DNA of 64,000 nt. Origin: Acidobacteriota bacterium (GTDB lineage Bacteria > Acidobacteriota > Holophagae > Holophagales > Holophagaceae). The DNA lies in assembly GCA_016192145.1 (NCBI GenBank), contig JACPUT010000002.1:62001-126000 (forward strand), in the 5' to 3' direction. The notes under the pieces were generated by a model. The model saw only the letters and a program-made list of their open reading frames with translations, did no database searches and was not told the origin of the DNA. Positions 15,426-50,596 of this stretch are shown piece after piece. Numbering within the stretch: the stretch's first letter is position 1; every line of letters starts with the position of its first letter. The position numbers were made by a program, and so were the translations under genes.

Positions 15426-16847
15426 ATGGCCCAGTTCGACGTGATCGTGATCGGTTCCGGCCCCGGCGGGTACATCGCCGCCGTGCGCGCGGGCCAGCTG
15501 GGGCTCACGGCCGCCATCGTGGAGAAGGATCCCTCCGGCCTGGGAGGCACCTGCCTCCGCCGGGGCTGCATCCCCGCCAAGACCTGGCTGGAGACGGCCC
15601 ACCGCCTGGAGCAGATGCAGGATTCCGCTGACTACGGCATCGATGGCGTGGATCCCAAGTCCCTCCGGGCCAACCTCGAAAACATCGTCAAGCGCAAGAA
15701 CCGCATCGTGCTGAAGAACGGCAAGGGCATCGAGTACTTGATGAAGAAGAACAAGGTGCAGGTCATCAAAGGTTTCGGCAAGCTGCTGGGCGGCGGCCAG
15801 GTGCAGGTGACCGGGGAAACGGGGGCTGAACTCCACACCGCCAAGAAGATCATCCTCGCCACGGGGTCCGTGCCCCGGGAGCTGCCGGGCTTGGAGACGG
15901 ATGGCGTGCGCGTGCTCAACAGCGACCACATCCTGGACCTGAAGACCCTGCCCGAGCACCTCGTCATCCTCGGCGCCGGCGCCATCGGCGTGGAGTTCGC
16001 CTCCACCTTCGCCCGGTTGGGCTCCAAGGTCACCCTCGTGGAACTGGCCGACCAGGTCCTCCCCATCGAGGATCACGAGGTGGGCAAGGAGCTGGAGAAG
16101 ATCCTCGCCAAGTCCTACAAGATGGACATCCGCGTGAAGACGAAGATCGCGAGCATCGAGCGCGGTGCGGACAAGGTGGTCTGCCACCTCGAAGGCGAGA
16201 AGCCCGGCGTGGTGGAGTGCAGCCACCTCCTCGTGGCCGTGGGCCGCGGCCCCGTCACCGCCAGCCTCGGGTTGGAGGCCACCCAGGCCAAGGTGGATCG
16301 GGGCTTCGTGGAGATCGACGGCTTCATGCAGACCTCCGAGCCTGGCCTTTACGCCATCGGCGATATCGTGCGCACCCCCATGCTCGCCCACGTGGCCTCC
16401 GACGAGGGCATCGTCGCCGCCGAGCACATCGCCCAGTCCCTGGGCAACAAGGACGTGCACCCCCACCCCATCAACTACGACCGCGTGCCTGGCTGCACCT
16501 ACTGCGACCCCGAGGTGGGCTCCATCGGCCTCACAGAGAATAAGGCCCGCGAGAAGGGCAAAGACGTGCAGGTCGGCGTCTTCCCCTTCATGCCCATGGC
16601 CAAGGCCAATATCGTGGGCGAGCCCCACGGCTTCATCAAGATCGTGGCCGACAAGACCTACGGCGAGATCCTGGGCATCCACATCATCGGCCCCAAGGCG
16701 ACCGAGCTCGTGAGCTCCAGCGTCGCCCTCCTCGGCGGCGAGTACACGGTGAACGAACTCATCAACACCATGTACCCCCACCCCACCCTCAACGAGGTGT
16801 TCCCCGAGGCGGCCCGCGCCGTTCACGGGCGTGCGTTGAATATGTAG
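15426..16847 (+). CDS. lpdA: Dihydrolipoyl dehydrogenase (E3)
   Basis: 473-residue flavoprotein that reoxidises dihydrolipoamide in 2-oxoacid dehydrogenase complexes or the glycine cleavage system. FAD-binding GSGPGG at 11-15, redox-active disulfide GTCLRRGCIP (C43, C48), NAD-binding GAGAIGVEFAS in the middle, the second FAD motif YAIGDI, and the C-terminal interface HPHPTLNEVFPEA with the catalytic His-Glu pair. The residues between the redox cysteines are LRRG rather than the usual LNVG. A GGAGG lies before the ATG. There is no lipoyl domain, and no E1 or E2 gene is adjacent, so it may serve complexes encoded elsewhere. Confidence 0.95.
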   Translation: MAQFDVIVIGSGPGGYIAAVRAGQLGLTAAIVEKDPSGLGGTCLRRGCIPAKTWLETAHRLEQMQDSADYGIDGVDPKSLRANLENIVKRKNRIVLKNGKGIEYLMKKNKVQVIKGFGKLLGGGQVQVTGETGAELHTAKKIILATGSVPRELPGLETDGVRVLNSDHILDLKTLPEHLVILGAGAIGVEFASTFARLGSKVTLVELADQVLPIEDHEVGKELEKILAKSYKMDIRVKTKIASIERGADKVVCHLEGEKPGVVECSHLLVAVGRGPVTASLGLEATQAKVDRGFVEIDGFMQTSEPGLYAIGDIVRTPMLAHVASDEGIVAAEHIAQSLGNKDVHPHPINYDRVPGCTYCDPEVGSIGLTENKAREKGKDVQVGVFPFMPMAKANIVGEPHGFIKIVADKTYGEILGIHIIGPKATELVSSSVALLGGEYTVNELINTMYPHPTLNEVFPEAARAVHGRALNM

Positions 16848-16855
16848 AGGGGTAG

Positions 16856-16950
16856 GAACAGGATGGACAGGGTTAACAGGATGAAAAGCGTCGGGCCTAC
16901 GGTCCTCCCATCCTGTTCATCTTGGCTTTTCATCCTGTCCATCCTGTTCA
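16856..16950. repeat. Iterated-unit palindrome (9-base unit family) overlapping a start codon
   Basis: An imperfect inverted repeat. The left arm (16856-16889) reads GAACAGGATGGACAGG then AACAGGATGAAAAGC, and both blocks recur in reverse complement in the right arm (about 16912-16950). Each arm is built from repeats of a unit close to GGATGAACA. It begins 8 bases after the lpdA stop and covers the start and signal-peptide codons of the next gene. Confidence 0.75.
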
Positions 16951-17354
16951 GCTCGCTGCCGGGTTGGGCCCAGTCCCAAGGCCGCCTCGTCTACCGCACC
17001 CGCGCCGGCCGCGCCGTCACCTTCCAGGTGGTGGATGGCGGCCACCCCGCCCTGATCTCCCTCCAGCGGGAGCAGGGCGACGCGGAGACGCTGCGCCAGT
17101 TCGTGCTGGTGCACAGCGGGCCCGAGAAGCTGATCGACGCGGGGGCCCTGCCGCAGCAGGAGCAGGCGCCTGCGGCGTGGAAGGTGAGCCACAAGGAGAC
17201 CCGTGTGTTGCTCAAGGGCCGGGAAGCCACCTACTGGCGCTACACGCCGGGCCTGGTGCTGCCCGTGCGCTTCAAGGCCCTGAAGGCGGAGTGGGCCTTG
17301 ATGGCGGCGGAGCTGCCTCCGAAGATGATGGTGGAACGGGGAGAACAGCGATGA
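16863..17354 (+). CDS. Small exported protein of unknown function
   Basis: 163 residues. An N-terminal signal peptide with hydrophobic core WLFILSILFSSL and a probable cut after PGWA is followed by a compact domain of about 125 residues with no recognised motif (alternating beta-like sequence, one HSGPEKLIDAG phrase). The ATG at 16863 has AGGA five bases upstream; an alternative ATG is at 16881. The first ~30 codons lie inside the palindromic repeat at 16856-16950, and the hydrophobic core is read from its right arm. The stop overlaps the ATG of the following gene by four bases, so both are coupled. Function unknown. Confidence 0.7.
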   Translation: MDRVNRMKSVGPTVLPSCSSWLFILSILFSSLPGWAQSQGRLVYRTRAGRAVTFQVVDGGHPALISLQREQGDAETLRQFVLVHSGPEKLIDAGALPQQEQAPAAWKVSHKETRVLLKGREATYWRYTPGLVLPVRFKALKAEWALMAAELPPKMMVERGEQR

Positions 17355-17803
17355 AGATGTTCGAGCGCAGCGCGGCGATGACCGGGTGGTTCGATCAGTA
17401 CGCGAAGGACCACACGCACATCCTCACCCACCGGACTCACGCCCTCTGCATCCCGCTCATCGTGTTCACCGCCATGGGCTTCCTGCACCAGATCCCGGGC
17501 CGCTATCCGGTAGGGGGCGTGCCCATGGGCTGGGCGGAGCTGCTGCTCTCCCTGGTCGTGTTCTTCTACGCCCAGCACGACCTCAAGCTGGCCCTCGTGG
17601 CGGGGCCCCTGGGCGCCCTGATGTGCGTGGGGGCGAGTTTCATCTCCTGGCCCATCCACCTCGCCATCGCCGTTCCCGCCTGGATCCTGCAGCTGGCGGG
17701 CCACTGGGTGTGGGAGAAGAACCAGCCCAGCTTCGCCACGAACCTCGTGCAGCTGCTCATCGGGCCTGCATACTTCCTGGATGGGCTCTTCAAGAAGGGG
17801 TGA
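17351..17803 (+). CDS. Mpo1-like/DUF962 integral membrane protein
   Basis: 150 residues with an N-terminal THILTHRTHALCIPLI segment, four hydrophobic helices, AQHDLKLAL in the middle and HWVWEKNQPSF near the end. This is the pattern of the DUF962/Mpo1-like family. The yeast member Mpo1 is an Fe(II)-dependent dioxygenase acting on 2-hydroxy fatty acids; the conserved histidines are present here, but the bacterial role is not established. The ATG overlaps the preceding stop. Its own stop codon is directly adjacent to the stop of the kinase gene on the other strand, leaving no intergenic base. Confidence 0.85.
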   Translation: MKMFERSAAMTGWFDQYAKDHTHILTHRTHALCIPLIVFTAMGFLHQIPGRYPVGGVPMGWAELLLSLVVFFYAQHDLKLALVAGPLGALMCVGASFISWPIHLAIAVPAWILQLAGHWVWEKNQPSFATNLVQLLIGPAYFLDGLFKKG

Positions 17804-26920: not shown

Positions 26921-27191
26921 AGGAGCGTAACCAAGTAGCCGAAGGGACCGCGCTGGAGAACCAGCCTAGTGCCCCAAGGCAACCGAGCGAAGGTGGTGCG
27001 GGTTCACCACTGAGTGAGGTTAACGAAGGGGCGCGACGGCTGGTGCTCCAGCCCGAAGGGTTGAATCCAAAGGGGCTTGACCCGGCGTCGGGCTGCTTGG
27101 ACGATGAACCCGCATCGCCCTTCGCAGCCCTCCTTGTCTGAAGCCCCTTTGGATTCAACGCGGTTTCCTTCGGTTACTTGGTTACGCTCCT
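26921..27191. repeat. 271-bp non-coding element with terminal and nested inverted repeats
   Basis: The ends are near-perfect 26-base inverted repeats: 26921-26946 and 27166-27191 differ at about one position plus one extra base (AGGAGCGTAACCAAGTA at the left edge). Inside is a second pair, perfect over 18 bases (27061-27078 with 27141-27158), and a third, weaker pair (about 26951-26966 with 27039-27054). An open frame of 79 codons on the minus strand (27158-26919) has a Ser/Pro/Gly-rich product with no domain and probably follows from the element's base composition. It begins 11 bases upstream of prfB. Together with the palindrome at 27224 it fills the 429-base gap between prfB and the hydrolase. 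Confidence 0.75.
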
Positions 27192-27223: not shown

Positions 27224-27325
27224 GGGCTCTGGCCTCTGGGCTCTAGGCTCTTGCTGCCGCCGACCCGCCCAGAGCATCGGCTGGGTCGCGGTCAGCAAGA
27301 GCCCAAAGCCGGGAGCCCAAAGCCC
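27224..27325. repeat. Iterated-unit palindrome, copy A (GGCTCTG unit)
   Basis: Two 43-base arms (27224-27266 and 27283-27325) are imperfect reverse complements with a 16-base centre. Each arm consists of repeats near GGCTCTG/GGCTTTG followed by a GCTG...GACCC inner end. The left arm is nearly identical in sequence to that of copy B at 42255. Most mismatches are C/T or A/G, so G-U pairs would keep an RNA stem. It ends 14 bases before the start of the hydrolase gene. Confidence 0.8.
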
Positions 27326-41476: not shown

Positions 41477-42276
41477 GGATCGACGTCCTCACGCTGCTTC
41501 CCGAGTACTTCGAGGCCGCGCGCCTGGGGGTGACGGGGCGGGCCTTCCGCGAACTGGGGCATGGCCTCCACACCCACAGCTTCCGCCCCTTTTCCGGTAA
41601 CGCCCATGGCCATGTGGATGCCCCGCCCTATGGCGGCGGTCCCGGCATGGTGCTGCGGCCGGAGGTGCTGCAGCAGACCCTGGCCTCGGTGCCCCGGGAG
41701 GGGCGCGGCCTGGTGATCCACTTCAGCCCCGCGGCCCCGCCCCTGGATCACGAGGCCGTGGTGGACCTGGCCTCTTTCGACCAGCTCATCCTCGTCTGCA
41801 GCCGCTTCGAAGGCCTGGATCACCGGGCCGTGGAGGCCTGCATCGATCGGGAGTACAAGGTGGGCGAGGCGGTCCTCAGCGGGGGGGAGCTGCCGGCCCT
41901 CGTGCTCATCGACGCCGTGGCCCGGTGGCTGCCCGGGGTGTTGGGCAACACGGAAAGCGCCGGGGCGGACAGCTTCGCCACCGGGCTCCTGGACCATCCC
42001 CACTTCACCCGGCCCGAGGTCTTCGAGGGGCGGCCCGTGCCCGAGGTGCTCAAGGGGGGCAACCACGAGGCCATCCGCCTCTGGCGCCTCCGGGAGGCCA
42101 TGGCCCGCACCCGGGACCGCCGCCCGGACCTGTGGAGCGCCTTTCTGAGGGATCGCCTCCATGAGCTGCCCAGATCCGAACAGTGGTGCGCCTGGCAGGT
42201 GGAACACCCGGAGGATTGGGACGCGGCCAAGCCCAAAAGGTGGAAGGGGTTCAAGGCTTTGGACTCTGGGCTTTAG
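41473..42276 (+). CDS. trmD: tRNA (guanine37-N1)-methyltransferase TrmD
   Basis: 267-residue SPOUT methyltransferase that makes m1G37 and prevents frameshifting. N-terminal MRIDVLTLLPEYF, YGGGPGMVL near residue 54, and the trefoil-knot SAM site CSRFEGLDHR...VGEAVLSGGELPALVLIDAV. GVLGNTESAGADSF and the DRRPDLW region complete the fold. The last seven residues (KALDSGL) and the stop codon are read from the left arm of palindrome copy B, so the natural C-terminus was probably different before its insertion. Upstream of rplS, as in many bacteria; rpsP and rimM are not adjacent. Confidence 0.95.
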   Translation: MRIDVLTLLPEYFEAARLGVTGRAFRELGHGLHTHSFRPFSGNAHGHVDAPPYGGGPGMVLRPEVLQQTLASVPREGRGLVIHFSPAAPPLDHEAVVDLASFDQLILVCSRFEGLDHRAVEACIDREYKVGEAVLSGGELPALVLIDAVARWLPGVLGNTESAGADSFATGLLDHPHFTRPEVFEGRPVPEVLKGGNHEAIRLWRLREAMARTRDRRPDLWSAFLRDRLHELPRSEQWCAWQVEHPEDWDAAKPKRWKGFKALDSGL

Positions 42277-42355
42277 GCTCTGGCTGCCGCCGACCCATCC
42301 GATCGCTCCCGCTGGGTCGAGCTCAGCCAGAGCCTAAAGCCCAGAGCCCAGAGCC
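42255..42355. repeat. Iterated-unit palindrome, copy B (GGCTCTG unit)
   Basis: 43-base arms (42255-42297 and 42313-42355) match as reverse complements at about 36 positions, with a 15-base centre. Arms are repeats of GGCTTTG/GGCTCTG ending GCTG...CGACCCA. The left arm is almost the same sequence as copy A. It includes the trmD stop codon and could also end trmD transcription. Confidence 0.85.
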
Positions 42356-50496: not shown

Positions 50497-50596
50497 GGTC
50501 CCTGGTCCTTAGTCCTTGGTCCCTAGCTGGCTCCGACCCACCCGATGGGTCGGAATCTGGCTTTTGCCAAGGACCAGGGACCAGGGACCAAGGACC
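50497..50596. repeat. Iterated-unit palindrome, copy C (GGTCCTT unit)
   Basis: The outer arms (about 50497-50525 and 50568-50596) are repeats of GGTCCTT/GGTCCCT and their reverse complements. The centre is a tight palindrome, CCGACCCA-CCCGA-TGGGTCGG (about 50533-50553). Its outer unit differs from copies A, B and D, but the GACCC...GGGTC core is shared, and the inner right side GGGTCGGAATC is identical to copy D. It starts 12 bases after the receptor gene stop. Confidence 0.8.

Follow-up and report, generated by a model that had tools for sequence, protein, structure and literature searches.

A dispersed palindrome of iterated 9-bp units at the start of an exported-protein gene in a Holophagaceae genome

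The palindrome and the predicted leader

The window analyzed here is a stretch of 64,000 nucleotides from an Acidobacteriota bacterium of the family Holophagaceae (assembly GCA_016192145.1, contig JACPUT010000002.1, positions 62,001 to 126,000), in which an open reading frame (ORF) for a predicted exported protein, 16863-17354, lies between a gene of the dihydrolipoamide dehydrogenase (lpd) type and an Mpo1-like gene and begins inside a palindrome of iterated 9-bp units (Table 1). We consider it probable that a palindrome devoid of genes was inserted at the 5' end of the exported-protein gene and now provides its start codon along with the basic (n) and hydrophobic (h) regions of a signal peptide, so that the product would be translated, exported via the Sec pathway and cleaved.

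One pair of arms (16864-16889 and 16925-16950) is 26 nt long and 85% complementary, and an alternative register (16856-16879 and 16926-16949) yields 24 nt at 88%; the gap between the arms is 35-46 nt and contains no gene. The arms are built of a 9-bp unit, ACAGGATNN on the left and ATCCTGTNN on the right. Two adjacent units (ATCCTGTNNATCCTGT, with up to 2 mismatches) are matched four times in the window, always inside 16856-16950, compared to a mean of 0.16 in shuffled sequences, none of which (0 of 100) reaches four. The RNA of 16830-16975 (146 nt) folds at -61.6 kcal/mol, compared to an average of -46.9 for shuffled sequences (z -3.65; none of 200 shuffles equal).

The ORF starts within the left arm, with the N-terminus MDRVNRMKSVGPTVLPSCSSWLFILSILFSSLPGWAQ, and the palindrome encodes residues 1-29, in agreement with an earlier note on this DNA that had placed the inverted repeat over the first ~30 codons. 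The claim of that note that the right arm provides the hydrophobic core of the leader is borne out as well: in the ORF frame, this arm reads SCSSWLFILSILFS, with the core LFILSILF, and this is the sole hydrophobic frame of the three, with the cleavage region staying in frame. The left arm supplies Arg and Lys and, with them, the basic n-region MDRVNRMK. The 10-residue Kyte-Doolittle maximum of the core is 2.36, compared to 2.04-3.28 in eight ortholog leaders. Small residues at -3 and -1 mark signal-peptidase cleavage sites, and by this rule, cleavage is expected after 16970, between GWA and QSQ, that is, seven residues beyond the repeat rather than directly at its end, as had been claimed; the segment SSLPGWA is probably a remnant of the old signal peptide. 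Judged by hydropathy and layout alone, the features of a Sec leader are present, namely the basic n-region, the hydrophobic core and GWA followed by Q.

Between the stop codon of the upstream gene (16845-16847), which precedes ATG 16863 by 15 nt, and codon +26 past the element, the only in-frame ATG, GTG or TTG codons are ATG 16863 and ATG 16881, with a purine-rich tract ahead of each, TAGGA 5 nt before the former and AGGG 8 nt before the latter. The next such codon is found 26 codons beyond the element, within the conserved first strands of the orthologs, so that initiation downstream of the repeat, which the earlier note had considered as a potential refutation, is not favored.

The AlphaFold model of the protein is confident from about residue 40, with pLDDT of about 49-56 for residues 1-30. 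A Pfam scan of the protein detected no families, the NCBIfam comparison gave only a chance-level match (E 0.088, far under the cut-off), and a fold search against the PDB returned nothing with E <0.001.

Table 1. Features at the locus of the exported-protein gene (window coordinates)
Feature	Coordinates	Strand	Evidence
Upstream pyridine-nucleotide-disulphide oxidoreductase gene, dihydrolipoamide dehydrogenase type	15426..16847	+	Pfam PF07992 (5.4e-66), PF02852 (1.9e-33)
8-nt intergenic remnant AGGGGTAG, possible Shine-Dalgarno AGGGG	16848..16855	+	Sequence
Dispersed palindromic element, 9-bp iterated units, gene-less copy	16856..16950	.	Arm, unit-count and fold analyses
Left arm: ATG 16863, ATG 16881, n-region MDRVNRMK	16856..16889	+	Sequence
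Right arm, read ATC-CTG-Tnn: SCSSWLFILSILF, hydrophobic core	16908..16950	+	Translation, hydropathy
c-region SSLPGWA, outside the repeat	16950..16970	+	Aligns with ortholog xxAQ
Mature exported domain, beta-rich, without Pfam family	16971..17354	+	Ortholog alignment, AlphaFold model
Downstream Mpo1-like gene	17351..17803	+	PF06127 (1.6e-15); similar translation in same-genus relative (L032)

The palindrome-free state in relatives and competing explanations

A search of 60 genomes identified the protein in 13, the genome under study included, which leaves 12 relatives. The N-terminus is readable in all 12, and the leaders are short, ordinary and different from that in the window, e.g., MKLLAAFLLACATLSAQ in a same-genus genome and MYFRVCLLAVCLSAAVRGYE in another genus; none of the 12 has the palindrome at the leader. 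Thus, as the earlier note had anticipated, orthologs lacking the repeat possess other leaders, and none combines the leader of the window with the absence of the palindrome. The same-genus relative retains both the upstream and the downstream neighbors, with a GTG start 1 nt after the upstream stop codon, and in another relative (L042), the gene starts 8 nt after that stop, with the gap GGAGCATT at the same junction. The residues that follow the element in the window, SSLPGWAQSQGRLVY, align with the ortholog pattern xxAQ..G.L.Y, the mature region aligns over its full length with 11 orthologs, and the ORF reaches its normal end with no frameshift or stop. With ordinary, palindrome-free leaders in all 12 relatives and both neighbors retained by the one of the same genus, the state in the window is derived: the repeat was inserted and took the place of the n- and h-regions, most simply at the former start codon or within the first codons of the signal peptide. 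The junctions of the relatives are palindrome-free and too divergent for a target site or target-site duplication to be read.

The makeup of the element suggests how such a replacement could work. Each AACAGGATG unit in one arm offers an ATG, preceded by an AGG-rich tract that belongs to the unit before it, and encodes an Arg-containing peptide (NRM or DRM), and the other arm, in the frame ATC-CTG-Tnn, encodes ILx repeats (ILS and ILF in the window). When the reading frames of the two arms match, the palindrome is a ready-made start, n-region and hydrophobic core; the near absence of stop codons in period 9 would have enabled it to take over. A gene-less element inserted at the 5' end of the exported-protein gene behind the lpd-type gene would have supplanted the old start codon as well as the n- and h-regions, leaving the c-region and the cleavage site in place; translation, perhaps coupled to termination at the upstream stop codon, would be followed by Sec export and cleavage. 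The suggestion of the earlier note that a repeat was recruited as an export signal and, perhaps, as the start region is supported: the start codons and the n-region lie in the left arm, and the hydrophobic core in the right arm, of a dispersed repeat that is derived relative to the orthologs, with the c-region and the cleavage site outside the repeat; translation and export are predicted.

Several observations weigh against this interpretation. The leader is 36 aa long and contains Gly and Pro between the n- and h-regions. The hairpin pairs both start codons, and opening the RNA for ~15 nt to each side of the codon would cost 30.0 kcal/mol for ATG 16863 and 27.0 kcal/mol for ATG 16881, compared to 6.7-21.0 in nine orthologs. 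Furthermore, the fused leader is known from a single genome. Given the high opening cost, initiation is possibly poor, and the gene might be silenced or decaying; the options are either coupling to the terminating upstream ribosome, a start before the right arm is transcribed, weak translation, or a dying gene.

The last of these options leads to the alternative that survives best, although we consider it unlikely: the insertion broke the gene, leaving a young pseudogene with an ORF that was fused in frame by chance and is barely or not translated. The locking of the start codons in a strong hairpin is compatible with this scenario, as is the frequency of chance in-frame fusions among the elements of the same genome (12 of 13; see below), and the lack of a Pfam family leaves no catalytic residues to check. 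Evidence against it comes from an ORF that is open to its normal end and alignable over the entire mature region, and from a right arm that sits in the one hydrophobic frame and is followed by an in-frame cleavage region.

Still less plausible is a palindrome that functions mainly as an RNA or regulatory hairpin between cotranscribed genes, attenuating the downstream gene, with coding use secondary. The hairpin is strong, and for 12 of the 16 copies in the genome (by crude ORF calls), the stop codon of an adjacent gene is no more than 25 nt away, a position from which a stem-loop could influence mRNA ends; however, the palindrome is absent from this junction in the relatives. Convergence or low complexity, by which an ordinary signal peptide would only look like the repeat, in the way that a membrane protein (L056) holds ATCCTGTTCATCCTGAGCATC through coding alone, is highly improbable, being already contradicted by the palindrome itself, with its two arms in the 9-bp register, by like copies at about 15 other sites and by the unrelated ortholog leaders.

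Dispersal of the palindrome and association with GxxExxY genes

The genome under study (3.8 Mb in 19 contigs) contains 45 matches to the double-unit pattern with at most 1 mismatch, compared to none for the reversed control. These matches form 17 clusters, 16 of which were judged by eye to be elements; the remaining one, at L056, was rejected as a chance match in a membrane-protein-like ORF. Triple units without mismatches are present in 4 of the 77 genomes of the host family (9 in this genome and 1-2 in each of three others), and the full palindrome is found in at least 119 stretches of GTDB genomes from both bacteria and archaea; the hosts among the matches listed include Methanoperedens and other archaea, Chloroflexi, Planctomycetes, Spirosoma, Pyrinomonadaceae, Thioalkalivibrio and others. 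On a Deltaproteobacteria contig, five palindromes are arranged in tandem with 112-nt spacing (L098, 77-592), and at another locus (L057, 2074-2501), the 9-bp palindrome surrounds a second one (ACACGGAGG/ACACAGAGG) that holds the GCCGCCGACCCA core, an arrangement of nested elements.

An ATG in the left arm with a frame open through the right arm is present in 90 of the 250 orientations of 125 distinct GTDB elements listed, and such a frame ends in the hydrophobic ILx reading in 34; with these frequencies, the takeover of a leader needs no rare coincidence. Within the genome under study, 12 of 13 elements, in the orientation as listed, have an ATG in the left arm or the spacer with a frame continuing past the element. 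At L050 and L061, the element is fused in frame to the next gene, whose own start follows 4-6 codons later; at L050 (1240-2159), the upstream ORF enters the left arm and ends in ...EQDGQDIQDEGAPSEAEPEPDQP, with the tail QDGQDIQDEGAPSEAEPEPDQP coming from the left arm and spacer. Elsewhere, palindromes lie in frame within a gene for the large chain of carbamoyl-phosphate synthase, flanked on either side by Pfam domains (L207, 1437-1484), and within another long ORF, with N6_N4_Mtase before the element (L139, 918-969). In view of these cases and counts, in-frame fusions are common for the 9-bp element; the window case appears to be set apart in that the fusion is now the sole start and hydrophobic core. 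Inspection of the best 40 of the 43 ILx-frame start positions in the 250 orientations revealed no convincing second signal-peptide case; among the matches listed, four ORFs have at least 75 residues after the element, with no Pfam family.

The genome encodes five proteins of the GxxExxY family (TIGR04256/PF13366, PDDEXK_3), and all five genes adjoin iterated-unit palindromes, the arms of which surround the gene in four loci (L063, L064, L065 and L066), with a palindrome directly upstream in the fifth (L062). The recurrence of palindromes with differing iterated units beside these genes agrees with the earlier proposal that such repeats follow a common design rule with unrelated units. At L063/L054 (C7:472181-472742), the arms use the 9-bp unit of the window; the gene belongs to TIGR04256 (E 5.3e-41), and its ORF can start within the left arm (MNRMDRIQGR). 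This copy of the palindrome encloses a GxxExxY gene, whereas the window copy contains none.

The association was assessed in 34 loci (L062-L095; five from this genome and the rest from a phylum-wide search), 30 of which were usable, by comparing the 150-nt gene flanks with 360 position-shifted controls in the same loci. Inverted flanking arms exceeded the 95th percentile of the controls in 25 of the 30 loci and the control maximum in 19, with units such as CACAGAG, GACGCGAAT, CGCAGATGA, AACAGGATG and others. In 21 of the 25 armed loci, the stop codon is located ahead of or at the right arm, and in 12, a start codon falls in or at the left arm. A further control, in which flanks were cross-paired between loci, was dropped as too harsh because the loci share units; under it, L063 is not significant (p 0.083). 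No flanking arms were detected in L062 under either control, a complete palindrome being located upstream instead. The test for periodicity is weak, with 12 of 30 loci at the 99% level on either side.

Given that L063 shares the unit of the window and that inverted arms flank 25 of 30 loci, the window palindrome is most readily interpreted as a copy of a GxxExxY-type element that has no gene. The position of the genes suggests that the GxxExxY protein might mobilize the palindromes. A broader proposal, which we put forward tentatively and rate at somewhat below even odds, is that bacteria and archaea harbor a large, hitherto undescribed class of mobile palindromes with iterated 7-10-bp units, for which the GxxExxY (PDDEXK_3) proteins serve as enzymes and the arms of which would be selected or predisposed for translation (ATG and basic residues on one side, nearly no stop codons on the other), so that gene-less copies would repeatedly donate start codons, in-frame inserts and tails and, in the present case, a start/n/h signal-peptide module. 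Searches of the open-access literature turned up no description of iterated palindromes that enclose GxxExxY genes; three papers name the family (PMC12085832, PMC8934634, PMC9756366), and their available portions do not describe palindromes. An occurrence of a unit string in the thyroid-cancer literature is an unrelated chance match.

The window contains three more iterated-unit palindromes (27224-27325, 42255-42355 and 50497-50589), with GGCTCTGG-like and GGTCCCTGG-like outer units and the common inner core CCGACCC/GGGTCG; a core-like 13-mer has 42 matches in the genome (at most 1 mismatch), compared to 11 for the reversed control. A 25-nt inverted repeat, AGGAGCGTAACCAAGTAGCCGAAGG, at 26921-27191 (96% complementary, arms 221 nt apart) seems to be a further short element adjoining the 27224 palindrome.

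Comparison with known repeats and implications

The contribution of a repeat to a signal peptide is not without precedent. According to the available parts of the reports of Delihas, 2007 (PMC2759123, PMC2229807), the RU-2/YAPL repeat of Yersinia overlaps a leader predicted by SignalP in YPO1552, and the leaders of the relatives are unrelated to the repeat. The window case resembles RU-2 in that a dispersed repeat overlaps the N-terminus in frame and the ortholog leaders are unrelated to it. The differences are that RU-2 is a 168-bp element which, in those parts, is described without the iterated 9-bp units found here, and that the window element would give the start codon, n-region and h-region, with a repeat-free relative in the same neighborhood at hand. 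The Rickettsia palindromic elements, reportedly described by Ogata et al. in 2000, are mostly internal to genes. They are palindromes of about 105-150 bp inserted in frame in protein genes, as stated in the accessible text of PMC10969869. By description only, they are comparable to the internal insertions of the 9-bp family at L207 and L139, but differ in that the window element forms an N-terminal leader and its class spans bacteria and archaea. Repetitive extragenic palindromes (REPs), given as 20-40 bp in PMC3733652, and BIMEs are likewise short dispersed palindromes close to gene ends; they are not known to have iterated 9-bp arms, unlike the window element. The present case would seem to be new in the class of element, in the completeness of the start/n/h module and in the clarity of the before/after comparison.

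Signal peptides are replaced over time among orthologs, and new ones might come from repeats, but clear before/after cases seem to be rare. In the window, the gene neighbors remain, as do the mature protein and the region of cleavage, and the start codon, n-region and hydrophobic core are repeat-derived; the period-9 code of the element would explain how one palindrome can serve as a start/n/h module. The link to GxxExxY genes, for its part, offers a candidate role for a widespread, uncharacterized nuclease-like family and a candidate source for puzzling palindromes.
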